From a virus: a stretch of 29,569 nucleotides of DNA. The stretch is from the IMG/VR virus record IMGVR_UViG_3300009370_000127, positions 1 to 29,569 of that record. One strand, given 5' to 3'. Position 1 is the first letter of the stretch; every line of letters begins with the position of its first letter. Of the stretch, positions 7,298 through 16,270 are shown piece by piece. Made by a program: the position numbers and the translations under genes. Below the pieces are notes generated by a model. It was not told where the DNA came from, did no database searches, and saw only the letters and a program-made list of their open reading frames with translations.

Positions 7298-7474
7298 ATG
7301 AAAACATTCACAGTTAGAATACCCGAAGTCCATTGGCAATACGTTGTGGTGGAAGCGGAGAATAAGAATGAAGCGATTGCTGCCGCTAAAAATGGTGAAG
7401 GCGATTACGGAAAAGATACAGAGTATGCTTATACTCTCGAAGATTACGAACACTATGACGTATTGGAGCATTAA
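7298..7474 (+). CDS. DpnD/PcfM-like small protein, copy 1 (58 aa)
   Basis: Starts directly after the previous stop, with GAGG 6 nt upstream. The layout (a beta strand, then Y-V-V-x-A-E-x-K-x-E-A-I-x-A-A-K, then strands) resembles the small DpnD/PcfM family, whose role is unknown. The next gene has the same layout, so the pair may be a diverged tandem duplication. No catalytic motif. Confidence 0.65.
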   Translation: MKTFTVRIPEVHWQYVVVEAENKNEAIAAAKNGEGDYGKDTEYAYTLEDYEHYDVLEH

Positions 7475-7708
7475 ATGAAGTATAAAGTAATAACTACTGA
7501 AATGTGGTCATCCACTTATATCGTAGACGCTAACTCCAAGGAGGAGGCTATTCAATCGGCTCGCCTCTCAAGAGACCCAGTTGAGTCGGTATACAATGAG
7601 ACGTTAAGGGATAGGGATTCCATGTACGTCGTTAAGCTGCCTGACTACGAGAAGGGCGAGAAGGTGGCAGAGATGGTTGAAAGACACAAGAAACCACTTG
7701 ACAAGTAG
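7475..7708 (+). CDS. DpnD/PcfM-like small protein, copy 2 (77 aa)
   Basis: Starts directly after the previous stop (taaATG), with GGAG 7 nt upstream. Residues 1-31 (MKYKV... YIVDANSKEEAIQSA) fit the DpnD/PcfM-type pattern more closely than copy 1. Its last codons contain the TTGACA -35 box of the next promoter (7698), so coding sequence and promoter are nested. Function unknown. Confidence 0.7.
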   Translation: MKYKVITTEMWSSTYIVDANSKEEAIQSARLSRDPVESVYNETLRDRDSMYVVKLPDYEKGEKVAEMVERHKKPLDK

Positions 7709-7726
7709 CGTTTCGTGTGTTAGGTT
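7698..7726 (+). promoter_or_regulatory. Leaderless-type promoter inside the previous gene's end
   Basis: TTGACA (7698-7703), 17 bp, TAGGTT (7721-7726), 7 nt, ATG at 7734. Confidence 0.82.
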
Positions 7727-7733
7727 ATACCCA

Positions 7734-7958
7734 ATGAAAGCGAAAATCGAAATCGAACTAGGCAATGACGCTTTTGGCAACAATCCTTCAGAGCGTCTGT
7801 TTGAAATACAAAATGTACTAGAACGCCTTGTTGATAACGCGGGACGCATAATGGCCGTTGACGTTGGTGACTTTGTTACCGCTCAAGACGTAAACGGAAA
7901 TACGGTTGCGAAGCTGGAAATCATCGAAGAAAATTTGCCTACAGACACTCCATCATAA
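7734..7958 (+). CDS. Hypothetical protein, 74 aa
   Basis: Start chosen from the promoter (-10 ends 7 nt upstream); an upstream in-frame ATG at 7677 lies before the promoter. Strand-helix-strand small protein with an acidic end; no family is recognised. Its transcript probably continues into the structured RNA at 7967, because no other promoter is visible for that RNA. Confidence 0.65.
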   Translation: MKAKIEIELGNDAFGNNPSERLFEIQNVLERLVDNAGRIMAVDVGDFVTAQDVNGNTVAKLEIIEENLPTDTPS

Positions 7959-7966
7959 AACGGTGA

Positions 7967-8087
7967 GCGTTGGCATCGTAAAGAATGATGCTTATTAGCT
8001 AGAGAGGTTTTAACATTTTACTCTCTAGAAGTTAAGCGGGAGGAGTTTTCGGAAAGGCATATTGCCCGTAATCATTCTAACCAACGC
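7967..8087 (+). ncRNA. Multi-stem structured RNA (121 nt)
   Basis: A closing stem GCGTTGG (7967-7973) with CCAACGC (8081-8087) and a second helix AGAATGAT (7982-7989) with ATCATTCT (8071-8078) enclose two arms: CTAGAGAG/CTCTCTAG (7999-8006/8021-8028) and GCGGG/CCCGT (8036-8040/8065-8069). All of these are perfect or end in one G-U pair. GCATC/GATGC (7973-7977/7987-7991) would form an alternative hairpin that breaks the second helix, as in an RNA switch. It follows a small gene and precedes the DUF932 unit by about 320 nt. No known family is recognised. Confidence 0.75.
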
Positions 8088-8098
8088 AATTTCTTAAA

Positions 8099-8241
8099 TA
8101 CCCCCATTTTCTCATCGGAGAAATCCCCCTTATATAAGAAACTCTGGGGTAGAATAACACTGAAATACAGCAATTTTTGGCAAATTAAATATACTTAAAT
8201 AACTCTAACAATTAAGGGCATTGGGTTAAGTCTCATTGTAT
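8099..8241 (+). other. Noncoding stretch with two further stems
   Basis: TACCCC (8099-8104) pairs with GGGGTA (8146-8151) and encloses a hairpin TTTCTC-ATCG-GAGAAA (8108-8123). This may be a second domain of the upstream RNA. The remainder to 8241 is AT-rich with no gene. Confidence 0.45.
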
Positions 8242-8294
8242 AGGGACTCGTGAGGCCGCAGCGGCCTACGCAACCCCTTGCTTCGCAAGGGGTT
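8242..8294. repeat. Cassette hairpin element R3
   Basis: GGCCGCAGCGGCC core (8254-8266, self-complementary around one A), followed by the hairpin at 8272-8294. Lies 39 nt upstream of the DUF932 promoter. Confidence 0.8.
8272..8294. terminator. Strong hairpin, possible terminator
   Basis: AACCCCTTG (8272-8280), CTTCG loop, CAAGGGGTT (8286-8294). There is no U-tract; a run of eight G follows instead. It may act as a terminator, an RNA end or a barrier. Confidence 0.55.
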
Positions 8295-8333
8295 AGGGGG
8301 GGGAAGAATCTATCCAGTGAGGTGAAAAAAGGT

Positions 8334-8362
8334 TTGACACTTAATCCGATATATGGTTTAAT
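8334..8362 (+). promoter_or_regulatory. Promoter of the DUF932 gene (with leader)
   Basis: TTGACA (8334-8339), 17 bp, TTTAAT (8357-8362). Unlike most others it has a leader of about 40 nt. The leader starts CCAGTTAGAC, similar to the CAGTTAAAC in the leader of the gene at 10514. Confidence 0.82.
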
Positions 8363-8408
8363 CTTTACCAGTTAGACGAACCCTAAACCCAAGAAAGAAA
8401 ACCTAATC

Positions 8409-9308
8409 ATGGCCAGAAACACTATTCAAACTTCCGACTTTGACTTCACCGTAGAGCGTGTTCCGCTCACCGTATCCACCACCAACAAAAAATCTCGCGT
8501 ATACGCGCACGTCCGCACCGATACGGGCGAGGAACTTGGCTGGGGTACAGAGCAGTATGGCTTTGTGCAAAACGGTGATTTGATTCACAACGCGGAATCG
8601 GCTTTCGAGTCTCGCGGTATGACTCCAACTAATCGTCAAGTTGTCGTGACGGGTCGCGGTGAGCGTATGTTCGCGCAGTACGACTTCGAGAATGAAACGG
8701 CCATTGCTACGAGGCGCGAGGATCGTGTCAAGGGCATGGAGTTGGGAATGCGTCTCACTCTGCAAAACTCTTTTGACCGTTCCCTGCGCGTATCCTTTGC
8801 GCTTGGCATGGTTCGGTTGGTTTGCCTTAACGGCATGACCACAATGGAAAAAGAATTCGGCATGACTCGCAAGCACTCCAGCAATGTGGAAATCGGATTC
8901 ATCGGGGATGCTCTCGACAAGGCAACGGGTAGCTTTCACAAAGCCGCGCAAGGCTTCAGTGTCTTGGGTGAGCGTGACATCACGCAAGACCAAGGTCGCA
9001 ACATCCTCAACCAGTTAGGTAAGTCCAAGGTGCTTTCCAACGTGGTGCGCGATGGCATCCTTAAAGTGTGGGAGAATCCTACTCACGAAGAGGATGAGGC
9101 TCGCAACCTGTGGACTCTCTACAATGCAGCAACTCAGCACCTCACCCATGAGGTTAGCCCTGACCGCTTCGAGTATGCAAACACTGTTAGCAGCAATGTC
9201 TTGCGGCGGTTACGCGGTGCTGCGGAAAACTCTGACAAGTTAAATAGGCTTGTCGTCGCGGTTCCAACTGATACGGTAGTGACCGAATCTGACGTGATCC
9301 TGAACTAA
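8409..9308 (+). CDS. DUF932 phage/plasmid-like protein, 299 aa
   Basis: It matches the DUF932 (phage/plasmid-like, TIGR03299-type) family in length and pattern: an N-terminal region ending in GWGTEQYGFVQN, a central strand-rich part (residues 60-120), VRLVCLNGM near 135-143 and a helical C-terminus. The family is common in phages and plasmids; its biochemical role is not established. No membrane segment. It has its own promoter with a ~40-nt leader, AAGAAAG before the ATG as a weak ribosome site, and a strong hairpin after it. It is more GC-rich than its neighbours, as expected for a highly expressed or recently acquired gene. Confidence 0.85.
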   Translation: MARNTIQTSDFDFTVERVPLTVSTTNKKSRVYAHVRTDTGEELGWGTEQYGFVQNGDLIHNAESAFESRGMTPTNRQVVVTGRGERMFAQYDFENETAIATRREDRVKGMELGMRLTLQNSFDRSLRVSFALGMVRLVCLNGMTTMEKEFGMTRKHSSNVEIGFIGDALDKATGSFHKAAQGFSVLGERDITQDQGRNILNQLGKSKVLSNVVRDGILKVWENPTHEEDEARNLWTLYNAATQHLTHEVSPDRFEYANTVSSNVLRRLRGAAENSDKLNRLVVAVPTDTVVTESDVILN

Positions 9309-9326
9309 ATAACCTCTCCCCCCCCA

Positions 9327-9351
9327 CCCGTAACCCCGAAGGGGTTACGGG
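9327..9351. terminator. Perfect 11-bp hairpin after the DUF932 gene
   Basis: CCCGTAACCCC (9327-9337), GAA loop, GGGGTTACGGG (9341-9351). Preceded by a C-run and without a U-tract. The sequence repeats the GGGGTTACG half of the cassette element. Confidence 0.65.
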
Positions 9352-9375
9352 AGCGGCTGCGGCTTACGAATTCCC
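9352..9375. repeat. Cassette element R4 core
   Basis: AGCGGCTGCGGCT core followed by TTACGAATTCCC and directly by the -35 box. With the hairpin at 9327 it forms a composite element. Confidence 0.75.
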
Positions 9376-9404
9376 TTGACAGTCAGACTTTTTTCGTGTA
9401 CTTT
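9376..9404 (+). promoter_or_regulatory. Leaderless-type promoter
   Basis: TTGACA (9376-9381), 17 bp, TACTTT (9399-9404), ATCCAC, ATG at 9411. Confidence 0.87.
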
Positions 9405-9410
9405 ATCCAC

Positions 9411-9533
9411 ATGAAGGCGAGGAAAAGTAAGGAGGGATACATGAACAGTGCCTCTCGCGTTCACCGAGTTAAGAAGGGCAAAGGCTCTTACATCCGTAAA
9501 CCTAAGCATAAGGAGGAACATGATCAGAGTTAA
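9411..9533 (+). CDS. Small basic protein, 40 aa
   Basis: Leaderless start 6 nt after the -10 box. About a third of the residues are Lys or Arg, with several His and Tyr, so it probably binds nucleic acid or is a leader-type peptide. Its end carries the strong ribosome site (AAGGAGG at 9510-9516) of the next gene, which starts inside it and overlaps by 14 nt. The peptide may therefore act to deliver ribosomes to the next gene. No family is recognised. Confidence 0.6.
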   Translation: MKARKSKEGYMNSASRVHRVKKGKGSYIRKPKHKEEHDQS

Positions 9534-9969
9534 TATCCAATATCGGGACATGACCGAGAAGCAATGTAAAAAGTTCTGGTTGGACTACCCAGAAGAAAAT
9601 TCGGTAGGTTACAAGTACACAGACCATGACATTCTCGATGCAGTGTGGGAGGGTTGGAATAACGGGAGTGGTAAAGAGTGTGACTTGTTTAAGAAGCTCG
9701 AAGTCCGCTCAATGATGGTGGGTGACTACGTTTCTATTTTGCGTCCTACGGTGGCAAGTGTATGGCATGAGTGTTTACCAATCGGGTGGCGTATCAATGT
9801 CCCGTGGGAAGAGGTATTGGGTAACGCACCCAAAGAGGATTTGTCTCACGTTACTGAAAAAGACGTGGCGAAAGCTCTTGCTGAAATGCTAGAAAACCAG
9901 AGGTGGGAAGAAAACATCTTAAAGGTAAACATCCCCAAATCAGATCACGAAATTTCACTTTCAGAGTAA
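9520..9969 (+). CDS. Hypothetical protein, 149 aa
   Basis: Start chosen at 9520 because AAGGAGG lies 3 nt upstream; the frame is open from 9448 but that part overlaps the previous gene. It is rich in Trp and acidic residues, with helices near both ends, no membrane segment and no recognised family. Second gene of the 9411-10415 operon. Confidence 0.65.
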   Translation: MIRVNIQYRDMTEKQCKKFWLDYPEENSVGYKYTDHDILDAVWEGWNNGSGKECDLFKKLEVRSMMVGDYVSILRPTVASVWHECLPIGWRINVPWEEVLGNAPKEDLSHVTEKDVAKALAEMLENQRWEENILKVNIPKSDHEISLSE

Positions 9970-9971
9970 TT

Positions 9972-10415
9972 ATGAAAAGCAGAGTTGAAGTCTACAGAAA
10001 CCTACATCATGAAGGCATTGTTTACTCAGTGCGAACCACTCATGATAGACTCGTATGCAAACACGTTCACGGAATCATTATTCAAGAAGCTGAGTTTGCT
10101 GTTGGAGGAAAGGGCAATCAGCGTGTACGTGATGAGCAGCGTAAGAACGTCCACGCGGTAGTGCGTGGCAATTGGCTCACATGGACAAAGCAACCGCCCC
10201 TGTCTTTAACCCCAATGGTAAGCCCAAAGAAGATGCTAAAGGATATGCAGTCGATGGCTAACTTGCCCGAACACGCAGATTGGGTTTATGAGCGAATTAC
10301 ATACGACCCTTATAAATATAAGACGTTTGTTACGATGAAATACGAAGAACCAATTCTTAATTCACCTCGTTGCTTTGTTGGTCATGAGTGTTGGGCGTTG
10401 GTTCCCCCAAGGTAG
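9972..10415 (+). CDS. Hypothetical protein, 147 aa
   Basis: Start at 9972, 2 nt after the previous stop; no clear ribosome site, so coupled translation is likely. It begins with strands (VEVYRNLHHEGIVYSVR) and a His-rich segment and has a short Pro-rich stretch near residue 80 and a conserved-looking C-terminus. No family or catalytic motif is recognised. Last gene of its operon, followed directly by cassette element R5. Confidence 0.6.
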   Translation: MKSRVEVYRNLHHEGIVYSVRTTHDRLVCKHVHGIIIQEAEFAVGGKGNQRVRDEQRKNVHAVVRGNWLTWTKQPPLSLTPMVSPKKMLKDMQSMANLPEHADWVYERITYDPYKYKTFVTMKYEEPILNSPRCFVGHECWALVPPR

Positions 10416-10449
10416 GGGTGCGGGAAGCCGCAGCGGTTTACGAATTCCC
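10416..10449. repeat. Cassette hairpin element R5
   Basis: GGGG near 10416, AGCCGCAGCGGTT core, then TTACGAATTCCC directly next to the -35 box. The right half is nearly the same as R4. Confidence 0.75.
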
Positions 10450-10478
10450 TTGACAATCAGACTTAAAAATGCTTTAAT
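10450..10478 (+). promoter_or_regulatory. Promoter with leader
   Basis: TTGACA (10450-10455), 17 bp, TTTAAT (10473-10478). The leader of about 29 nt holds AAACCTACAAC from 10489, the same motif found just inside the coding start of leaderless genes, then CGGAG before the ATG at 10514. Confidence 0.85.
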
Positions 10479-10513
10479 CTTCATCAGTTAAACCTACAAC
10501 CACGGAGAATATT

Positions 10514-10903
10514 ATGGGACTCGATCAAAACGCATACAAGCAGAAATCAACCTACGACAAGAGCACACGCACCGAAACCATTACCAAGACAGAGCTTCAC
10601 TACTGGCGTAAACATAATCGTTTGCAGGGGTGGATGGAGAATCTATATCGCAGCAGGGGCGGGCAAGATGAATTTAATTGCGTGGATGTTCGCATTGACG
10701 AAAATGATTTGGAACGTCTGGAAGCGGCCATTCTACACAAAGAGTTGCCACAGACAGGCGGCTTCTTTTTTGGTAATGATTCTTATGATCGTGATGGTGT
10801 CGATGGGGAATATTACTATAAGGAGAGCGACCTTGAATTCGTTCAGAAGGCTAGAAAAGCCATGTCTGAGGGCTGGACTATAGTTTACAATTGTTGGTGG
10901 TAA
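10514..10903 (+). CDS. Conserved phage protein of unknown function, 129 aa
   Basis: A recognisable conserved phage type: MGLDQNAY start, YWRKHNRLQGWMENLY near residues 30-45, FNCVDVRI, GGFFFGNDSYDRDG and a C-terminal ...VYNCWW. Relatives are frequent in T4-like and marine phages and have sometimes been given doubtful enzyme names; the function is not known. It has a Shine-Dalgarno site (CGGAG 8-9 nt upstream) and a leader, unlike most neighbours. It is the last plus-strand gene before the minus-strand cassette block and ends next to a convergent hairpin element. Confidence 0.72.
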   Translation: MGLDQNAYKQKSTYDKSTRTETITKTELHYWRKHNRLQGWMENLYRSRGGQDEFNCVDVRIDENDLERLEAAILHKELPQTGGFFFGNDSYDRDGVDGEYYYKESDLEFVQKARKAMSEGWTIVYNCWW

Positions 10904-10920
10904 AATACGGCCTCGCTCTT

Positions 10921-10967
10921 GTAACCCGAAAGGGTTGCGGAAGCGGCAGCGGGGTTAGTAACCCCTT
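10921..10967. repeat. Convergent cassette element R6
   Basis: GTAACCC-GAAA-GGGTTGC hairpin (10921-10938), GCGGCAGCGG core, then GGGGTTAGTAACCCC (10951-10965). It lies between convergent genes and probably terminates both; no promoter is attached. Confidence 0.8.
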
Positions 10968-11103
10968 ACTTTTCCTTTCTATAGATTAATCCACGCTTCT
11001 TGACTATGCGTCTAGCAGTGTCAATCTGCTGCTTGTTGTAGGAGGGTTTCACGTCGCCATTATGGACGTGCTTCATGATTTTTTTAGCGATACGTAGGTT
11101 CAT
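10966..11103 (-). CDS. Small basic protein, 45 aa
   Basis: A short, Lys- and Arg-rich helical protein with no recognised family. No ribosome site or adjacent promoter is visible, so it should be read from the promoter at 11387 after a ~280-nt leader that contains the structured RNAs at 11244-11380 and 11126-11189. Its stop overlaps the right end of R6. The reading is consistent, but it may be a by-product of an RNA gene. Confidence 0.5.
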   Translation of the reverse strand: MNLRIAKKIMKHVHNGDVKPSYNKQQIDTARRIVKKRGLIYRKEK

Positions 11104-11125
11104 AAAATGTATAGAGGTCTTGTTA

Positions 11126-11189
11126 CCGCGCCACGGCTTCGCTCATTGCCGACAGAAGGATTTCTTATCTGCGTCCGGTTGAGGCGCGG
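11126..11189 (-). ncRNA. Three-way-junction RNA element
   Basis: CCGCGCC (11126-11132) pairs perfectly with GGCGCGG (11183-11189) and encloses CGGC/GCCG (from 11134) and a second imperfect stem. It lies downstream of the tRNA-like RNA on the minus strand and 23 nt upstream of the 45-aa gene, so it could be a leader element. The structure is possible on either strand; minus is inferred from the promoter. Confidence 0.5.
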
Positions 11190-11243
11190 GTCAAAACTGC
11201 ATGGCCTATAACCCAGCACCACAGCAGTAAATTAAATTGTCTG

Positions 11244-11380
11244 CTGGTGCGAGGGGATCGAACCCTCATCCCTCCGGTATCGTGTCACCGTCTAGCTTCG
11301 TCGCGCTTCCACTAGGGGCTTTCCCGCGAGGGCACTCACAATCGCCTTAAACTCAAGTGAGGGCAACCATTGCCACCAAC
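11244..11380 (-). ncRNA. tRNA-like structured RNA 1 (~137 nt)
   Basis: On the minus strand the RNA should begin near 11380, 6-7 nt after a -10 box. It has a near-canonical T-arm, GAGGG-TTCGATC-CCCTC (loop at 11256-11262), directly followed by GCACCAG. The 5' end TTGGTG (11379-11374) can pair with CACCAG (11249-11244), closing the molecule as an acceptor-like stem. Other stems are GGCAA/TTGCC, CTCAC/GTGAG and CGGT/ACCG. It is too long and lacks a clear D-arm or anticodon arm for a normal tRNA. A second RNA of similar size and ends lies at 15727-15884. Confidence 0.6.
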
Positions 11381-11386
11381 AAGAAA

Positions 11387-11415
11387 AGAGTATCAGATAA
11401 ATATAAATAGGTCAA
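11387..11415 (-). promoter_or_regulatory. Promoter of tRNA-like RNA 1
   Basis: Minus strand: TTGACC (11415-11410), 17 bp, TACTCT (11392-11387). Predicted +1 near 11380. Confidence 0.65.
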
Positions 11416-11437
11416 TAAAAAACTTTAATTAATTTTA

Positions 11438-11470
11438 AAGGGTATTAAAAAGCGCAGCGGGGTCATAAAC
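11438..11470. repeat. Cassette hairpin element R7
   Basis: Degenerate left half (GGGT), AGCGCAGCGGGG core, AACCCC at 11468-11473. Between the gene at 11474 and the RNA promoter at 11387-11415. Confidence 0.6.
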
Positions 11471-11473
11471 CCC

Positions 11474-11758
11474 TTACTCCTTCATCCACGGTGGTGGTTC
11501 GTCTTTGTCCCACATTTCATTAACTTTCATCCACGGGATGCGAAGTAGTTCATCCCATGATTCTTGATCTACAACATCATTGTGAGCAGCCCGAACAATA
11601 GCGTGATGACCCGAAAGCTTCCATTTCCAATCTTCACCATACGTTTCAGTCAGCACGTCAGAATCAATGGTATGTTCCTTGCCTTCAGGGTTAATGTAAG
11701 TGAAAACGTGCCTATTAGTTTTCCTGTTAGAGTAAAGTAAGAATTTCTCGCCTTCCAT
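11474..11758 (-). CDS. Hypothetical protein, 94 aa
   Basis: Leaderless start 6 nt after TACTAT. A soluble protein with strands at the N-terminus (EKFLLYSNRKTNRHVFTYINPEGKEH), a Trp-rich helical second half and an acidic Pro-rich end. No family is recognised. First protein gene of the minus-strand cassette block: one promoter, one gene, one hairpin element. Confidence 0.65.
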   Translation of the reverse strand: MEGEKFLLYSNRKTNRHVFTYINPEGKEHTIDSDVLTETYGEDWKWKLSGHHAIVRAAHNDVVDQESWDELLRIPWMKVNEMWDKDEPPPWMKE

Positions 11759-11764
11759 GGGGAA

Positions 11765-11793
11765 ATAGTATGATATAAATATCGGTTTGTCAA
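11765..11793 (-). promoter_or_regulatory. Cassette promoter, leaderless type
   Basis: Minus strand: TTGACA (11793-11788), 17 bp, TACTAT (11770-11765), TTCCCC, ATG at 11758. The same layout recurs through the block. Confidence 0.9.
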
Positions 11794-11803
11794 GCGTATT
11801 AGT

Positions 11804-11866
11804 AGGGGTTAATGATACCGCAGCGGCCCCCGTAAGCCCTTGTGAGCTTACGAGGGTTGGGGGCTA
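11804..11866. repeat. Cassette hairpin element R8 (long)
   Basis: AGGGGTT with an ACCGCAGCGG core, followed by a nested hairpin CGTAAGC/GCTTACG (11831-11837/11846-11852) inside GGCCCCC/GGGGGC. A longer composite copy. Confidence 0.75.
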
Positions 11867-12169
11867 GGCCAAGCTTGGTTCAGTGCCAGCGTAGAGGCCA
11901 GCGGCTTCTTGTCGCTTTTCCTCAGTTAGGTCACGGAATTCCAACATATCCATTTCATCATCTCCAAGGAGACAATCCATATGGTCATTGTATTTGGGGA
12001 TACGACCCTCACGGAGAGAGGCGATATTCTTGAGATCAACTTCATCGAGTTGAGCATGGTGTGGGTTGCAGCGAGTCCCATCGCTGAAGGTGGTTTGGTC
12101 ACGTTCGAGGATGTCCTGTTGGATACGTTGGACGTGGTTCTTTATTAGATGCTCTATTCTGTTGTTCAT
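11864..12169 (-). CDS. Hypothetical protein, 101 aa
   Basis: Mainly helical and acidic, with a DGTRCNPHHAQLDEVDL segment in the middle and an LTEEKRQEAAGL end; the pattern looks like a conserved phage family but I cannot name one. The start lies 9 nt after TACATT, and the sequence before the ATG (ACCTCC) is the opposite of a Shine-Dalgarno site. Single-gene cassette. Confidence 0.6.
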   Translation of the reverse strand: MNNRIEHLIKNHVQRIQQDILERDQTTFSDGTRCNPHHAQLDEVDLKNIASLREGRIPKYNDHMDCLLGDDEMDMLEFRDLTEEKRQEAAGLYAGTEPSLA

Positions 12170-12178
12170 ATCGGAGGT

Positions 12179-12207
12179 AATGTAACACCAAATACGTTAC
12201 CTGTCAA
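12179..12207 (-). promoter_or_regulatory. Cassette promoter, near leaderless
   Basis: Minus strand: TTGACA (12207-12202), 17 bp, TACATT (12184-12179), 9 nt, ATG at 12169. The spacer holds GTAACGTATTTGGTGTTAC, an inverted GTAAC/GTTAC pair that may be an operator. Confidence 0.82.
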
Positions 12208-12216
12208 GCATTTATT

Positions 12217-12252
12217 TAGGGATCACGAAACCCGCAACGGGGTAGCGAACCC
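12217..12252. repeat. Cassette hairpin element R9
   Basis: Variant copy: AGGGATCACGAAACCC, a CGCAACGGGG core (AAC instead of AGC), GCGAACCCC. Confidence 0.7.
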
Positions 12253-12253
12253 C

Positions 12254-12532
12254 TTATTCATCTTCCCAACGATAGCCTTCAGGTGGCATGATGTGCCACA
12301 AGTCATTTTCCCTTGCTCTACCTATGACGTGAGGCTCAATCTCTTCCATGTCTACCATGCCCCACTCGTTTTCGTTGCCCATCACATAGCCAAAGGACAA
12401 GCCGCAACTGTCTGTCTCTTCTAGATAATACTCCCAAAGGTTTTTAGTGATGATATGTTGATGCACGGTGAAAGGCTCGCCTTCGGCGCATGGGCCTGTC
12501 CCATCGTTGCTGATTATGTTTCTAGGTTTCAT
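12254..12532 (-). CDS. Hypothetical protein, 92 aa
   Basis: Leaderless or with a 1-2 nt leader (8 nt from -10 to ATG); starts ATGAAACCTAG, close to the shared 5' motif. Acidic and Trp-rich, with GYVMGNENEWGMVDMEEIEPH in the centre and a PPEGYRWEDE end. No recognised family or membrane segment. Single-gene cassette. Confidence 0.65.
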   Translation of the reverse strand: MKPRNIISNDGTGPCAEGEPFTVHQHIITKNLWEYYLEETDSCGLSFGYVMGNENEWGMVDMEEIEPHVIGRARENDLWHIMPPEGYRWEDE

Positions 12533-12540
12533 GTAGGGAA

Positions 12541-12569
12541 ATAGTACGCTCTAAATATCGGTTTGTCAA
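12541..12569 (-). promoter_or_regulatory. Cassette promoter
   Basis: Minus strand: TTGACA (12569-12564), 17 bp, TACTAT (12546-12541), TTCCCTAC, ATG at 12532. Confidence 0.88.
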
Positions 12570-12578
12570 GCCCTACTT

Positions 12579-12618
12579 TAGGGACCACGAAACTCGCAGC
12601 GGGGTGGCGAACCCCTTT
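12579..12618. repeat. Cassette hairpin element R10
   Basis: AGGGACCACGAAACTCG, CAGCGGGG core, GGCGAACCCC. Confidence 0.75.
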
Positions 12619-12769
12619 AGTGACCACAGCACGGGTAGTCTTCGCAGTTGCAACGTGAGTAGTTATCTGGGCCACCATCATCCCAAAAAGCTTGCTCTCT
12701 TTCATCAAACCATTCGCTCATTTCGGCATGGTCTTGGTTGGTCATTTCACTATAAGGGTCTTTACTCAT
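12617..12769 (-). CDS. Small acidic protein with Cys-rich C-terminus, 50 aa
   Basis: Start chosen at 12769, 6 nt after TACTAT; the open frame extends upstream to 12856 through the promoter and hairpin, so that part is not coding. The protein is acidic and ends RCNCEDYPCCGH, where four Cys and a His could hold a metal ion. The rest is helical with DHAEMSEWFDEREQAFW. No named family. Single-gene cassette. Confidence 0.65.
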   Translation of the reverse strand: MSKDPYSEMTNQDHAEMSEWFDEREQAFWDDGGPDNYSRCNCEDYPCCGH

Positions 12770-12775
12770 GGGGAA

Positions 12776-12804
12776 ATAGTACGGCTGAAATATCGATTTG
12801 TCAA
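12776..12804 (-). promoter_or_regulatory. Cassette promoter, leaderless type
   Basis: Minus strand: TTGACA (12804-12799), 17 bp, TACTAT (12781-12776), TTCCCC, ATG at 12769. Confidence 0.9.
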
Positions 12805-12813
12805 GCATTACTT

Positions 12814-12852
12814 TAGGGGTTACGAAACGCGCAGCGGGGTGACGAACCCCTT
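12814..12852. repeat. Cassette hairpin element R11
   Basis: Consensus copy with AGGGGTTACGAAACGCGCAG and GGGGTGACGAACCCC; the same core sequence as R12 and R20. Confidence 0.85.
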
Positions 12853-12860
12853 TCACACTT

Positions 12861-13025
12861 TTACCAAGTCCATTCAGTGGTGAGCATACAGTGAGCTACT
12901 ACAAAGCTCAAAGCAAGGGCCGCACCCAAGCACGCCGCAATGGTTAATTCAAGATACCACTTAACTTTAGCATCTTGTTCGTTGAGTTGCTGGATTTCTT
13001 TACGTGTTAGGTTTTTATTTTTCAT
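12861..13025 (-). CDS. Small membrane protein, 54 aa
   Basis: Overlaps the preceding gene by ATGA and so is probably coupled to it. The first 23 residues are polar and charged (KNKNLTRKEIQQLNEQDAKVK), then one hydrophobic segment (residues 25-44) spans the membrane. No family recognised. With the 33-aa peptide at 13022 it makes a cassette of two small membrane proteins, which might form a pair. Confidence 0.6.
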   Translation of the reverse strand: MKNKNLTRKEIQQLNEQDAKVKWYLELTIAACLGAALALSFVVAHCMLTTEWTW

Positions 13026-13123
13026 GATATAGATTCAATGTAAATGCCCGTTGCTAGTATCACCACAAATGATACGATACCGACAATAAGAACAAAGTAA
13101 ATATCTCTGAAGTCGTCGTTCAT
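13022..13123 (-). CDS. Membrane micropeptide, 33 aa
   Basis: Start lies 7 nt after TACTAT, without a ribosome site. Acidic N-terminus (NDDFRD), then a hydrophobic helix (residues 8-26). Its stop overlaps the next start (ATGA). Unknown function. The promoter and the coupled second gene make it credible despite its size. Confidence 0.6.
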   Translation of the reverse strand: MNDDFRDIYFVLIVGIVSFVVILATGIYIESIS

Positions 13124-13130
13124 TGGGAGA

Positions 13131-13159
13131 ATAGTACGGCTTAAATATCGATTTGTCAA
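13131..13159 (-). promoter_or_regulatory. Cassette promoter
   Basis: Minus strand: TTGACA (13159-13154), 17 bp, TACTAT (13136-13131), 7 nt, ATG at 13123. Confidence 0.88.
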
Positions 13160-13169
13160 GCATTACTTT

Positions 13170-13207
13170 AGGGGTTACGAAACGCGCAGCGGGGTGACGA
13201 ACCCCTT
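13170..13207. repeat. Cassette hairpin element R12
   Basis: Same core sequence as R11. Confidence 0.85.
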
Positions 13208-13210
13208 ATG

Positions 13211-13426
13211 TTAATAGTCGTTACCTTCCATTTGATTAAAGTCTGCTAGGTCATCCATGCCAGACCCGTCACCAGGCCAGCAACCTTCAAAGCCATCATA
13301 GGCTATTGTAGATGAGGAGAAATTAGGCTTCTCATCATAATACTCCTCTGAGCCAATTTTGGCAAGGCGGTCATCAGGGCTTTGGGGGTCGAGGTTAGAA
13401 TTAGGGTTGTTGTAGGTTTCACTCAT
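13211..13426 (-). CDS. MSETY-type small acidic protein, 71 aa
   Basis: Start chosen at 13426 from the promoter (-10 ends 7 nt upstream); the open frame upstream to 13555 crosses a promoter and hairpin. It begins MSETYNN, sharing its opening codons with genes at 15280, 16186 and 3488. The rest is acidic and probably disordered (NPNSNLDPQSPDD, GDGSGMDD). Single-gene cassette; function unknown. Confidence 0.62.
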   Translation of the reverse strand: MSETYNNPNSNLDPQSPDDRLAKIGSEEYYDEKPNFSSSTIAYDGFEGCWPGDGSGMDDLADFNQMEGNDY

Positions 13427-13433
13427 GGAGAAA

Positions 13434-13462
13434 ATAATAATATCTAAATACTGATTCGTCAA
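13434..13462 (-). promoter_or_regulatory. Cassette promoter (divergent pair)
   Basis: Minus strand: TTGACG (13462-13457), 17 bp, TATTAT (13439-13434), 7 nt, ATG at 13426. Faces away from the plus promoter at 13510. Confidence 0.8.
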
Positions 13463-13474
13463 GAAGTTTTTTTT

Positions 13475-13510
13475 GGGGTTACGAAACGCGCAGCGGCCTA
13501 AGAAACCCCT
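13475..13510. repeat. Cassette hairpin element R13 (between divergent promoters)
   Basis: GGGGTT, GCGCAGCGG core, AAACCCC; the last base is the first of the plus -35 box. No gene end lies here, so it is not needed as a terminator. Confidence 0.8.
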
Positions 13511-13538
13511 TGACAACGTCACAGAGTTCGTGTACCTT
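13510..13538 (+). promoter_or_regulatory. Leaderless-type promoter
   Basis: TTGACA (13510-13515), 17 bp, TACCTT (13533-13538), ATTCCC, ATG at 13545. Confidence 0.87.
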
Positions 13539-13544
13539 ATTCCC

Positions 13545-13928
13545 ATGAGTGACACTTATCAATTCGAGGATGTAGAAATTAAGCTGAACGATTCAACCCT
13601 CCTGTATGTCTTTGGAGAGCTTGAGTACGACCCTTGCTGGGAAAATGGTGATTTCGATTACGAGGGGCCACAAGGGACGGCCACTCATCGGGTCGGCATG
13701 GAATTGACCGATATTGAAATTGAGGATATAAGCATTTTTCATTTTAACGTCTCTGCTAACATGGGTGGCAAGTGGGTAGATTTGGGGCAGATTGAATGGA
13801 GTTACTGCGATCAGGATAAGAGCTTTCGGGCGTTTGTGGAAAAGGAAATTCGCGAAATCGTAGGCAATGACCGTTCATTTACTGAAACGGTACAAGAGGC
13901 GGGCGTGCCAGAATATGACCCTTGTTGA
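13545..13928 (+). CDS. Hypothetical acidic protein, 127 aa
   Basis: Leaderless start 6 nt after the -10; the frame is open from 13473 but that part is promoter. It begins MSDTY, like the MSETY group. Strand-rich and acidic, with a repeated EYDPC (near residue 35 and at the C-terminus) and a WSYCDQDKSFRAFVEKEI helix. The family is unrecognised. Single plus-strand gene inserted among minus-strand cassettes. Confidence 0.62.
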   Translation: MSDTYQFEDVEIKLNDSTLLYVFGELEYDPCWENGDFDYEGPQGTATHRVGMELTDIEIEDISIFHFNVSANMGGKWVDLGQIEWSYCDQDKSFRAFVEKEIREIVGNDRSFTETVQEAGVPEYDPC

Positions 13929-13950
13929 GTGTAAATATCATCTCACCCTT

Positions 13951-13997
13951 GCAACCCGAAGGGGTTGCGGGGGCCGCTGCGGGGTTAGCGACCCCTA
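13951..13997. repeat. Convergent cassette element R14
   Basis: GCAACCC-GAAG-GGGTTGC hairpin, GGCCGCTGCGG core, GGGGTTAGCGACCCC. Between convergent genes, same layout as R6. Confidence 0.8.
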
Positions 13998-14050
13998 AAC
14001 ATCCTATAAGCTATATAAACTAAAAGGATAGTTACTATAGGCTCCATGCT

Positions 14051-14233
14051 CTATTCGCAGGGATTAGGCTGAGTCCACACGTAAGGCCAAACCCCAACAA
14101 TCTCGCTATTAGGGTTATCTGCCAAGGCGCAGCGTTTGGCTTCTTCCAGAGAGAAGTCGCTAAAGCTTTGTTGATGATAATGACCGCTAACGGTGTGGCG
14201 GGTTCGGATCGTGTAGTTTTTGGTGTCGTCCAT
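14051..14233 (-). CDS. Hypothetical protein, 60 aa
   Basis: Start 8 nt after TAGTAT. Its layout (strand-rich start, a His-rich HYHQQSFSDFSLEEAKRCA stretch, then strands) is faintly like the DpnD/PcfM-type proteins at 7298-7708, but too divergent to assign. Single-gene cassette. Confidence 0.6.
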   Translation of the reverse strand: MDDTKNYTIRTRHTVSGHYHQQSFSDFSLEEAKRCALADNPNSEIVGVWPYVWTQPNPCE

Positions 14234-14241
14234 TTAGGGAA

Positions 14242-14270
14242 ATACTACACCCTAAATATCGGTTCGTCAA
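14242..14270 (-). promoter_or_regulatory. Cassette promoter (divergent pair)
   Basis: Minus strand: TTGACG (14270-14265), 17 bp, TAGTAT (14247-14242), 8 nt, ATG at 14233. Confidence 0.85.
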
Positions 14271-14278
14271 GCATTATT

Positions 14279-14315
14279 TAGGGGTTACTAAACACGCTGC
14301 GGCTAAAGAATCCCC
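14279..14315. repeat. Cassette hairpin element R15 (between divergent promoters)
   Basis: AGGGGTTACTAAACACGCTG, GCGG, AATCCCC, directly followed by the plus -35 box. Second divergent example. Confidence 0.8.
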
Positions 14316-14344
14316 TTGACAGTTAACTCTTTTTCTTGTACATT
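14316..14344 (+). promoter_or_regulatory. Near-leaderless promoter
   Basis: TTGACA (14316-14321), 17 bp, TACATT (14339-14344), 10 nt, ATG at 14355. Confidence 0.83.
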
Positions 14345-14354
14345 CTTTCTCGTA

Positions 14355-14663
14355 ATGAAGACCTACAAAACTTATCAAGCTCGTAACGCGGTCAAGGCCG
14401 CAGAGGTAACCAACCACATCAAAGCTCAAAAAAAATTGGGCGTGACTCATGAGAAGGCGAAGGCTGAAGCTTATCGCCTTTATCAAATCAAGGCTGCGAT
14501 GCCTATCCTCCGGCTCTCTTTTGAAGAGGCTCGTGTGGTAGCTGCTCCCCCTATCCCTCAAATGGTAAAAGTGAGCCTTCCACCTCTGCCCCAATCTAGA
14601 GCCTTGCCACCGCTGCCAGTGGGATTAGCCACAAACCCGCCTTCTCAATTACAAATACAGTAG
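14355..14663 (+). CDS. Hypothetical protein with Pro-rich tail, 102 aa
   Basis: Start from the promoter; the upstream open frame to 14316 is promoter DNA. It starts MKTYKTY (ATGAAGACCTAC, close to the shared 5' motif). Residues 8-60 are Ala/Lys/Glu-rich helix, likely coiled coil; residues 72-102 are Pro-rich (PPLPQ, PPLPVG) and probably extended. It might be a scaffold or binding protein; family unknown. Confidence 0.62.
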   Translation: MKTYKTYQARNAVKAAEVTNHIKAQKKLGVTHEKAKAEAYRLYQIKAAMPILRLSFEEARVVAAPPIPQMVKVSLPPLPQSRALPPLPVGLATNPPSQLQIQ

Positions 14664-14675
14664 GCACAGCGTCCT

Positions 14676-14723
14676 CGTAACCTGAAGGGGTTACGGGGGC
14701 CGCTGCGGGGTGGCGAACCCCTT
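14676..14723. repeat. Convergent cassette element R16
   Basis: CGTAACC...GGTTACG hairpin (14676-14695), GGCCGCTGCGGGG core, GCGAACCCC. Between convergent genes. Confidence 0.8.
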
Positions 14724-14988
14724 AAAAACCTAATCGTCGTTTAGCTCGCCACCACCACCCATATGCGGGGTCTTCGCCCCTGAGATTGGTGAGCCAGTAA
14801 AGGCGGTGGCACACGAGGTTAACCCAACGAGAGTTGGGCCACCTGTGGGCAGGGCCATGAGAACGGCTAAAGACCCAGCTACTGAAAGACCACTGCCACT
14901 CATGCGGCATGACTGCACGCACCACAGGGCGCAGGACTTGAGAGCGGCGGACAAAGAAACGAACAAGGTTGAACAGTAGGTCATTCAT
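14722..14988 (-). CDS. Hypothetical basic Trp-rich protein, 88 aa
   Basis: Start chosen at 14988 (7 nt after TACTAT); the frame is open to 15024 through the promoter. Unusually rich in Arg and Trp (ten Trp), ending YGWWWRAKRRLGF; this could suit membrane-surface or nucleic-acid binding. An alternative in-frame start in another frame (14984, 84 aa) also exists, so the true frame is not certain. Single-gene cassette. Confidence 0.5.
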   Translation of the reverse strand: MNDLLFNLVRFFVRRSQVLRPVVRAVMPHEWQWSFSSWVFSRSHGPAHRWPNSRWVNLVCHRLYWLTNLRGEDPAYGWWWRAKRRLGF

Positions 14989-14995
14989 TGGGGAA

Positions 14996-15024
14996 ATAGT
15001 ACGGCTGAAATATCGATTCGTCAA
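14996..15024 (-). promoter_or_regulatory. Cassette promoter
   Basis: Minus strand: TTGACG (15024-15019), 17 bp, TACTAT (15001-14996), 7 nt, ATG at 14988. Confidence 0.87.
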
Positions 15025-15033
15025 GAATTATTT

Positions 15034-15072
15034 TAGGGGTTACGAAACGCGCAGCGGCTTCAGTGATCCCTT
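15034..15072. repeat. Cassette hairpin element R17
   Basis: Consensus left half (AGGGGTTACGAAACGCGCAG), right half degenerate (GATCCCTTCGGGTC). Confidence 0.75.
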
Positions 15073-15091
15073 CGGGTCTGGAGCGTGTTAG

Positions 15092-15280
15092 CTATTCATC
15101 AAAAAGCTCATCGTAGTAATTACGGAATGGCACTACTTCGAGTTCGTCGGGGGTTTCTTCCACACCTTCGAGAGTCATCACTTGGACGGTCTCTTCAAAC
15201 AGGTTGAGGGTGCTGGCGTCAAACTCCAAGTCACACTTGGCGTCCAGGTTAGGATTATGGTGGTCGTAGGTTTCACTCAT
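15092..15280 (-). CDS. MSETY-family small acidic protein, 62 aa
   Basis: Leaderless start 6 nt after TAAGTT. It shares MSETY, LDAK, EFDAST and NLFE with the protein at 15977-16186, so the two are paralogues about 0.9 kb apart. Acidic and helical, ending NYYDELFDE. Unknown function. The repeated family in the same kind of cassette suggests duplication of whole cassettes followed by divergence. Confidence 0.68.
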   Translation of the reverse strand: MSETYDHHNPNLDAKCDLEFDASTLNLFEETVQVMTLEGVEETPDELEVVPFRNYYDELFDE

Positions 15281-15286
15281 GGGAGA

Positions 15287-15315
15287 AACTTACGGCATAA
15301 ATACCCATTCGTCAA
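15287..15315 (-). promoter_or_regulatory. Cassette promoter, leaderless type
   Basis: Minus strand: TTGACG (15315-15310), 17 bp, TAAGTT (15292-15287), TCTCCC, ATG at 15280. Confidence 0.85.
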
Positions 15316-15325
15316 GAATTATTTT

Positions 15326-15363
15326 AGGGGTTACGAAACGCGCTGCGGCTTCAGTGACCCCTT
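15326..15363. repeat. Cassette hairpin element R18
   Basis: AGGGGTTACGAAACGCGCTG, GCGG, GTGACCCC. The core has T in the centre while R17 has A. Confidence 0.8.
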
Positions 15364-15367
15364 ATGC

Positions 15368-15417
15368 TACTCCCCCGTATCCCCCCCGTATTTATTCGAC
15401 AGGGGGGGAGGGGGGTA
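15368..15417 (-). terminator. C-tract/G-tract hairpin, possible terminator
   Basis: Two C runs (around 15370-15388) face two G runs (15402-15415) with a short A/T-rich loop, so very GC-rich pairing is possible and the G runs might also form a quadruplex. On the minus strand it follows the small membrane genes at 15455-15640. No clear U-tract. Confidence 0.45.
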
Positions 15418-15454
15418 ACTTTTTTTTCATTTCAAAAAAATTACGCAGTACGGA

Positions 15455-15553
15455 CTACGTTAATGCTAAGGCGATTAAGGCAAAGCCTAGTGCGGTAAGA
15501 ATAAAGCCAGTTTGAAAGGCTGCGAGAAACATATCCCAATTAATTTTTTTCAT
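15455..15553 (-). CDS. Small membrane protein, 32 aa
   Basis: Begins MKKINWD and continues as one hydrophobic helix (residues 8-31) rich in Ala and Leu. It follows a 23-aa peptide by 15 nt and is probably the second gene of that cassette; the spacer carries AAAAAACCTACTAAATATG, another copy of the AAACCTAC motif. No ribosome site is seen. Confidence 0.55.
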   Translation of the reverse strand: MKKINWDMFLAAFQTGFILTALGFALIALALT

Positions 15554-15568
15554 ATTTAGTAGGTTTTT

Positions 15569-15640
15569 TTAGTTGTTAAAAGACTCACACACGAGGCGAG
15601 TCATAACGTACGCGAATAGGATTCCTGCTATCGGTTCCAT
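15569..15640 (-). CDS. Micropeptide with a membrane segment, 23 aa
   Basis: Start 7 nt after TATTAT. MEPIAGILFAYVM forms a short hydrophobic helix, followed by a polar end. The cassette promoter and position support expression, but at 23 aa this remains tentative. Pairs with the 32-aa membrane protein downstream. Confidence 0.5.
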   Translation of the reverse strand: MEPIAGILFAYVMTRLVCESFNN

Positions 15641-15647
15641 GTAGAGA

Positions 15648-15676
15648 ATAATACTTGTCAAATACCAATTTGTCAA
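15648..15676 (-). promoter_or_regulatory. Cassette promoter
   Basis: Minus strand: TTGACA (15676-15671), 17 bp, TATTAT (15653-15648), 7 nt, ATG at 15640. Confidence 0.87.
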
Positions 15677-15686
15677 GCATCATTTT

Positions 15687-15724
15687 AGGGGTTCGAAAAG
15701 CCGCTGCGCTTCGCGCTACCCCTT
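15687..15724. repeat. Cassette hairpin element R19
   Basis: AGGGGTTCGAAAAGCCGCTG, then GCGCTTCGCGC and TACCCC; the inner part can form a GCGC-TTC-GCGC hairpin. On the minus strand it follows RNA 2. Confidence 0.75.
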
Positions 15725-15726
15725 AA

Positions 15727-15884
15727 TGGTTCTCACGGAGTCGAACCGCCACCATTAGGGAAGGCGAAGCCAAAGCGATGTTGGGCCGCGTTCTTAAGGC
15801 ACTTTTTCGCATCTACACCCGACGACATACGAGGGGCGGTGCCGCGATAATTCTAGGCGGGAACCAGTCAGCCATCGCTTAACT
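15727..15884 (-). ncRNA. tRNA-like structured RNA 2 (~158 nt)
   Basis: A complete cassette promoter (15892-15920) drives a stretch with no gene on the minus strand. Predicted RNA features are a helix AAGCGATG (15880-15873) with CATCGCTT (15780-15773), inner stems GGCAC/GTGCC and CCGC/GCGG, a T-arm-like GCGG-TTCGACT-CCGT (loop 15745-15739) and TGGTTC (15866-15861) able to pair with GAACCA (15732-15727) near the 3' end. Together these imply a pseudoknot and a tRNA-like closed end. It is followed by element R19 at the position where cassette genes end. It resembles RNA 1 at 11244-11380 in ends and size; family unknown. Confidence 0.65.
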
Positions 15885-15891
15885 GGGGAAA

Positions 15892-15920
15892 ATAGTAGCT
15901 TGGAAATATCGATTCGTCAA
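15892..15920 (-). promoter_or_regulatory. Cassette promoter of RNA 2
   Basis: Minus strand: TTGACG (15920-15915), 17 bp, TACTAT (15897-15892), then TTTCCC; predicted +1 near 15884. No start codon follows. Confidence 0.85.
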
Positions 15921-15930
15921 GCATTATTTT

Positions 15931-15968
15931 AGGGGTTACGAAACGCGCAGCGGGGTGACGAACCCCTT
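15931..15968. repeat. Cassette hairpin element R20
   Basis: Same core sequence as R11 and R12. Confidence 0.85.
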
Positions 15969-15976
15969 ATGTGTTA

Positions 15977-16186
15977 TTACTCTTCACGGAGCCCATCCAT
16001 GAAGCGGTCTTCGTTTTCGTTTTCCTCGTAACAGAGTTCATCGATGACGGTGAAATGTTCGTCAGCGAGCACATCCACTTGCGCTTCAAACAAGTTTATG
16101 GTGCTGGCGTCGAATTCGGCGTCAAGCTTCGCGTCAAGGCTCGCGCTAAGTGGGGTTTCTGAATTAGGTTCGTAGGTTTCACTCAT
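15977..16186 (-). CDS. MSETY-family small acidic protein, 69 aa
   Basis: Leaderless start 6 nt after TAGGAT. Shares MSETY, LDAK, EFDAST and NLFE with the protein at 15092-15280. The extra segment ASLDAKLDAEFDAS looks like an internal duplication. Ends ENEDRFMDGLREE. Acidic, soluble, unknown role. Confidence 0.68.
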   Translation of the reverse strand: MSETYEPNSETPLSASLDAKLDAEFDASTINLFEAQVDVLADEHFTVIDELCYEENENEDRFMDGLREE

Positions 16187-16192
16187 GGGAGA

Positions 16193-16221
16193 ATCCTAGA
16201 GCCAAAATATCAGTCTGTCAA
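16193..16221 (-). promoter_or_regulatory. Cassette promoter, leaderless type
   Basis: Minus strand: TTGACA (16221-16216), 17 bp, TAGGAT (16198-16193), TCTCCC, ATG at 16186. Confidence 0.87.
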
Positions 16222-16231
16222 CACTTTTTTT

Positions 16232-16270
16232 AGGGGTTTGGAAGACCGCAGCGGTTTCCGTAACCCCTTT
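16232..16270. repeat. Cassette hairpin element R21
   Basis: AGGGGTTTGGAAGACCGCAG, CGG, then GTAACCCC and TTTT. Confidence 0.78.

Follow-up and report, generated by a model that had tools for sequence, protein, structure and literature searches.

The stretch at positions 7967-8087 of IMG/VR virus record IMGVR_UViG_3300009370_000127 can be drawn as a multi-helix RNA, and raises the question of whether such an RNA is encoded there and, if so, whether it acts as a switch for the gene behind it or as a stable RNA in its own right. The record was analysed over its full 29,569 bases (the window) and carries phage genes, among them those for the terminase large subunit, PhoH, a clamp-loader-like AAA protein, and SprT-like, GP88 and DUF932 proteins. 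The element lies where a sequence-only reading had placed it, between a small gene (7737-7958, plus strand) and a DUF932 gene (8409-9308, plus strand; Pfam PF06067, 4.5e-16). The product of the small gene has 73 aa and belongs to no family, and only 2 nt separate its stop codon from the element as delimited below. For the window's terminase (26648-28480), 212 stretches were matched in IMG/VR, of which 175 were confirmed as relatives, with named phages at no more than about 28% identity among the matches listed; these matches point to a common uncultivated phage group.

Both nested helices of the sequence-only reading are exact at 7967-8087: a perfect 7-bp outer helix, P1, between GCGTTGG (7967-7973) and CCAACGC (8081-8087), and a perfect 8-bp inner helix, P2, between AGAATGAT (7982-7989) and ATCATTCT (8071-8078). 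The stretch folds with a minimum free energy of -36.6 kcal/mol (z -3.39), a value reached by none of 200 dinucleotide shuffles; folding of the opposite strand is comparable (z -5.06).

A search with the DUF932 protein gave two related phage contigs, G001 (25.9 kb) and G002 (158 kb); for these and the window, three related records, 'genus' is used here as a working word. Nucleotide search of both contigs returned a perfect 19-base match elsewhere in G002, the surroundings of which form a homologous RNA, and covariance model R1 was built from the window and G002 copies. R1 matches the window at 7957-8094, by construction, and found a copy in G001 with 58.9 bits (E 1.4e-12). Viral_contigs were scanned for the 5' motif CGGTGAGCGTN0-4GGCATCG, and the 105 stretches obtained were scored with R1, yielding copies in L294 (53.3 bits, E 1.5e-10) and L290 (28.3 bits, E 3.2e-4). 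The carriers are therefore the window and four phage contigs, from three independent lineages. The L294 and L290 sequences are fragments (a whole record of 4.5 kb for L294, 13.7 kb of L290). When reading frames were compared, none from the window or G002 matched L290; between L294 and G002 the matches are a trypsin-like gene (50% over 219 aa) and three others that are short and marginal. On these comparisons L294 and L290 are phages without detectable core genes in common with the window phage, and the distribution of the RNA appears scattered, extending to at least two further phage groups beyond that of the window. Folding energies taken alone were weak outside the window, with z values of -1.15 (G002), -0.60 (G001), -2.20 (L294) and -0.65 (L290), and P2 is missing from the minimum-energy fold of L290.

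Compensatory base changes in relatives, on which the sequence-only reading had staked its helices, are present: P1 and P2 are paired in all five rows, with both bases changed at 7 of their 15 pairs (two pairs in P1, five of eight in P2) and at none in slid controls. Comparison of the window with G002 alone gave changes on both sides at 6 of 27 pairs, against 0 in six slid controls. Across the three genus members, all 84 cells of S1, P1, P2, P3 and P4 (described below) are paired and 8 of 28 pairs are double-changed (slid controls, 0-1); across the five members, S1, P1 and P2 are paired in 100 of 100 cells, with double changes at 7 of 20 pairs (slid controls, 0). The three- and five-member alignments were fitted to R1, a model biased towards its own pairs; none of G001, L294 and L290 was used in building it. 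As the 5' search pattern fixes the 5' side and leaves the 3' partner free, pairing is a fair test in the copies found with it. Among 127 unique motif places, an exact P1 complement together with an inner helix of at least 8 bp occurred in 4 (window, G002, L294 and L290, two of them the R1 training pair), where 0.033 were expected from shuffles. A motif-free descriptor scan over both strands of 6.4 Mb returned the same four copies, all with a 2-nt gap between P2 and P1, together with 9 dissimilar matches with gaps of 1 or 3 nt. On this comparative evidence the helices are real, beyond chance.

Comparison also redraws the outline and the interior of the element. CGGTGA ahead of P1 is kept in all five members, which places the true start at 7960/7961, so that the 121 nt of the sequence-only reading, exact in their helices, begin too late; with its T-rich tail the whole structured RNA spans 7960-8092 (plus strand). 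The two hairpin arms that had been drawn inside P2 are those of a single-sequence fold. Two arms are likewise found by comparison, namely P3, in which GCTT (7990-7993) pairs with AAGT (8029-8032) in all three genus members with a double change in one pair, and P4, in which CGGG (8037-8040) pairs with CCCG (8065-8068) and 2 of 4 pairs are double-changed among the three genus members compared. The single-sequence helix GCTTA/TAAGC is lost in G002 (GCCTG/TAAGC, read by eye), where GCTT/AAGT is retained. The arm at 7999-8028 is an optional hairpin on P3, P5 (CTAGAGAG/CTCTCTAG), swapped for another in G002 and missing from G001. The 3' strand of P2 is followed in all five members by a gap of exactly 2 nt and the 3' strand of P1, behind which come an A and the T-rich tail; a T-run behind P1 is found in the window, G002, G001 and L294, and none in L290. 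By this comparison the molecule is closed by P1 and P2, the latter leading, in the genus of the window, into a three-way junction formed with P4 and with P3, on which P5 may be present or absent.

The 5' strand of P1 is flanked by CGGTG (7961-7965) and CATCG (7974-7978), for which pairing across P1 is proposed. The geometry fits an H-type pseudoknot with S1 of 5 bp, a loop of 1 nt (A7966) and P1, of 7 bp, as S2. It is possible in all five members, with the S1 sequence imposed by the search pattern in L294 and L290. S1 is present in the minimum-energy fold of G001, and any such stem can be formed at 2.3% of window positions. Double changes occur at 2 of 7 pairs in S2 and 0 of 5 in S1, the sequence of which never varies. 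We infer an H-type pseudoknot in which the 5' end lies folded over P1, so that both ends of the molecule would be locked.

The first four bases of the S1 3' strand also belong to the hairpin GCATC (7973-7977)/GATGC (7987-7991), which had been read as replacing one of the nested helices. This claim holds as far as the drawing goes: the hairpin is present in the window and has equivalents in all five members (5, 5, 5, 7 and 4 bp), which allows two mutually exclusive folds. The bases paired in it hardly vary and show no double change, and an exchange is to that extent without covariation.

Several further searches were made. The pattern GCGTTGGNATC..CCAACGC gave at least 119 stretches in viral_contigs, among which, for the matches listed, the internal core was found only in the G002 copy. 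Of 13 stretches found with ACGGTGAGCGT..CGCAWTTT, G002 was one, and the others were judged chance matches by covariance-model scores and sequence; the lower gap limit of this pattern exceeds what G001 allows by about 1 nt. The pattern TTAAGCNGGAGG..ATTGCCNGTAAT returned G002 only, and GGTTAAG..CCNGTAATTG returned G002, G001 and L241, the last with no covariance-model score. L265 (with L275, L310 and L338, 99.7% identical) scored 32.4 bits and was dropped, its 4-bp inner helix being at chance level (0.99 expected over 127 places); the stretch appears coding by eye. L394 (27.9 bits), L395/L396 (26.5 bits) and L393/L354 in bacterial genomes were rejected as having no S1 and/or P2. R1 matched 0 of 50 records of terminase relatives, in a scan with no positive control. 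R2, at E up to 1, matched 8 of these 50, comprising the four known carriers, strongly, and four weak matches that were discarded (E 0.10-0.82). At E up to 0.001 and with few candidates scored per genome and no known positive, R2 gave no match in one phylum (398 genomes) and matched 2 of 296 genomes in a second, both being weak matches already named. A pattern search of genome_contigs gave 40 stretches, none with a covariance-model match better than E 0.087; this pattern is blind to the GCGTAGG form because it demands a T before GGCATCG. The window element has no nucleotide match in phage or plasmid collections, and those of L294, L265 and L290 have none or weak ones (E 3-4), taken as chance.

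What is constant in the genomic setting is a preceding gene or tRNA in the same orientation as the RNA; the downstream side varies. The distance from the end of that gene or tRNA to the motif is 2 nt in the window, 34 nt in G002, 30 nt in G001, 29 nt in L294 (a GC-richer phage, where the preceding gene is a tRNA-Met) and 56 nt in L290. Behind the RNA stand a DUF932 gene, a small SprT-like gene or a trypsin-like gene, depending on the carrier, and the next gene in L290 runs in the opposite direction; the distance to the next gene is about 265-320 nt in the window, G001 and G002. In G001 and G002 other sequence takes the place of the RNA ahead of DUF932, and the RNA stands ahead of the homologue of the window gene at 1361-1609, where the window has no copy (R1 finds in the window only the copy at 7957, plus one 7.3-bit match). 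From these differing locations it follows that the RNA changes place within one phage genus. There is accordingly no constant 5'-UTR position ahead of one kind of gene. A scan of window 7400-9500 gave no promoter-like or terminator-like site; in L290 a GC-rich stem with a T-run lies about 80 nt beyond P1.

Other elements were observed in the same contigs. A second conserved hairpin, TTTCTTAAA then ATTTYCTCATCGGRGAAAT with adjoining C or G runs (window 8088-8125, L007:1482-1518 and L008:1501-1538, minus strand), follows the RNA directly in the window, whereas in G001 and G002 it lies at other places. Window 8250-16250 contains a stem repeat of the kind GGGGTTACGAAACGCGCAGCGGGGTGACGAACCCCTT in many copies at gene borders, several of which run into a TTGACA-like promoter box, as a terminator and promoter fused in one repeat. 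The site ahead of DUF932 in G001 and G002 (L001:3795-3910, L002:3790-3900) holds another stem-rich element, GTGAGTT...ATTTTTT...ACTCAGTGCAAGC, a motif that recurs elsewhere in both contigs. A stretch of G002 (L008:1640-1710), GGTTCAATCCCTCGCACCA, resembles a tRNA T arm with CCA end, for which ARAGORN made no call. In L290:1-13751 a motif of the type TGACGAGTCAAC recurs at many scattered places, perhaps as a leader or promoter repeat, and L294:392-2542 carries in a row tRNA-Met, the RNA, the trypsin-like gene with its 50% identity to a G002 gene, and a gene for an RNA ligase.

We tentatively favour the reading that these copies represent a small undescribed family of phage-borne structured non-coding RNAs, acting stand-alone from a transcript 3' end. 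Transcription of the preceding gene or tRNA would continue through the RNA and stop at the T-rich tail just behind P1, so that the RNA forms the 3' end of that transcript; it would then be stable and act on its own, with a phage or host protein bound at its near-invariant pseudoknot end and with interchangeable inner arms. Its position 2-56 nt behind a co-oriented gene or tRNA, the T-rich tail in four of five members and the lack of a constant downstream gene fit a 3'-end RNA and not a riboswitch, and an RNA that stands alone and is bound by a protein would agree with inner arms that vary next to a putative pseudoknot end that hardly does. The constant place behind a co-oriented gene and the T-run after P1 in 4/5 would also suit an element that works only in cis, as a bulky terminator or an exonuclease block of the upstream mRNA or tRNA transcript, with no trans function. 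We regard this as a lesser possibility: the near-invariant 18-nt 5' end exceeds what a terminator needs, the T-run is missing at P1 in L290, which has its GC-rich stem and T-run further on, and the terminator scan of the window region was negative. The sequence-only reading had left the choice between a switch and a stable RNA; covariation bears out the structured RNA, and the switch is the weak part. A riboswitch or leader of the downstream gene, in which P1/P2 are exchanged for a GGCAUC/GAUGC hairpin, could draw on the fact that this hairpin (4-7 bp) is available in all five members, GGCAUC overlapping P1/S1 and GAUGC overlapping P2. It appears quite unlikely in view of the varied downstream genes, the antisense neighbour in L290, the long distance to the next gene in the genus and the alternative hairpin without any double change; a metabolite switch for the DUF932 gene in particular is not supported, G001 and G002 having no copy at that gene and another gene downstream of the RNA.

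Small size, a proposed pseudoknot, a near-invariant end and scattered occurrence in phages might also be displayed by a new class of self-cleaving ribozyme built around an H-type pseudoknot; as no invariant unpaired core is seen beyond the S1/P1 strands and no Rfam ribozyme matches, we give this very little weight. Cruciform arms covary too, so the locus might instead be a DNA site (cruciform, recombination or packaging), and the frame GTG AGC GTN GGC ATC, readable by eye in four members, might suggest a short coding sequence. Among the P2 oppositions, however, are three G-U and no A-C, which favours an RNA on this strand; orientation to the upstream gene is constant, and the frame is broken by a 1-nt insertion in G001 and stops after 11-14 codons in the genus (read by eye). 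Neither a DNA site nor a coding sequence is thus at all probable in place of an RNA.

The boldest reading, though not the best, connects the RNA with a nuclease. G002 encodes a TnpB/Cas12-like protein of 492 aa (81133-82608, minus strand), matched by the Pfam TNB domain (1.9e-17), PADLOC Cas12u4 (1.3e-47), NCBIfam guided_TnpB (193.6 bits, cut-off 100) and, in the PDB, TnpB 8h1j (5.8e-22) and LaTranC 9jfo (2.4e-11); its alignments contain the GID, ED and DRD motifs, which we take to hold the catalytic residues. An array of 13-nt GAGGATTAMRACA repeats lies just downstream of the gene (gene and array, G002:80283-82608, L135:283-2608), possibly a minimal CRISPR-like guide array. With at most one mismatch, the repeats number 51 on one strand and 0 on the other in G002, 11 and 0 in G001, and 8 and 0 in the window (at 2-241 and 1772-1878); most neighbours in G002 are 30-47 bases apart. 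The RNA is flanked by two repeat clusters in G001 and G002, an arrangement that suggested a tracrRNA; a 13-nt repeat could presumably not itself fold into a scaffold. The RNA might then be a trans-acting tracrRNA-like scaffold for the phage nuclease with its dispersed guide arrays. CRISPR-like arrays with 29-bp repeats adjoin tnpB-like genes in Thermus Lalka phages (PMC11437467), which gives the arrangement of gene and array a precedent with a different repeat. Anti-repeat pairing, however, was not significant: against shuffled repeats, mean duplex energies gave z of -1.22 (window), +0.34 (G002) and -2.53 (G001, the one suggestive value), and against random segments of the same genome -0.25, -0.29 and -1.25, respectively. 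The effector was found in G002 only, the repeats in all three genus members. Neither GAGGATTAMRACA repeats nor a TnpB zinc domain were found in L294 (4.5 kb, the whole record) or in L290 (13.7 kb), both of which are fragments. We therefore consider the scaffold improbable, and similarly doubtful a split-guide TnpB/Cas12 system made up of a nuclease, dozens of 13-nt repeats with short spacers and a pseudoknotted RNA that moves between phages as shared scaffold. If the RNA did serve the TnpB-like nuclease, it would represent a natural guide RNA split in two, en route from TnpB to CRISPR-Cas12.

The sequence-only reading knew of no matching family, and all five copies bear this out. Searches of the window against Rfam 15 gave 0 matches at gathering threshold and, at E up to 10, only unrelated sub-threshold matches around the element; in the G002, G001 and L294 stretches the one true match was the tRNA beside the L294 copy, and the RNA was unmatched there and in L290. 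We take the Rfam library to include GOLLD, ROOL, manA, wcaG and the known ribozymes, to none of whose covariance models these scans gave a match. ARAGORN called no tRNA or tmRNA gene in the window or in the pieces of G001 and G002 that contain the RNA. A literature search found no description of this RNA in the sources covered. Few structured RNAs of uncultivated phages have been catalogued. The present one is backed by covariation, has a covariance model and a proposed pseudoknot that can be tested, and occurs scattered among unrelated phages, so that it can be expressed and probed at once.

Among known systems, the pistol self-cleaving ribozyme has a hairpin whose loop pairs with a downstream strand, as proposed here, but differs from the window RNA in helix order and conserved core and in having an Rfam model that does not match it. 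The phi29 pRNA is a phage RNA with paired ends and a three-way junction, like the window RNA; it is tied to the packaging genes of phi29-like phages, whereas the window RNA has no constant neighbour. Cas12f tracrRNA and TnpB omega RNA are multi-helix scaffold RNAs, and the G002 RNA is likewise multi-helix in a phage that encodes a TnpB-like nuclease, but does not adjoin tnpB and has no significant anti-repeat. GOLLD and ROOL measure several hundred nt, compared with about 95-130 nt for the present family, which has no Rfam match; the accession of wcaG is RF01761. GOLLD and ROOL are described as phage-associated ornate RNAs (PMC12286853). Another source describes manA (RF01745) and wcaG as structured RNAs of marine metagenomes and phages, manA with a possible pseudoknot, and places both in the 5' UTRs of metabolic genes (PMC2864571). 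Neither of their models matched, and where these are, on that account, 5'-UTR elements, the window RNA stands behind genes; by habitat, they are the nearest to it.
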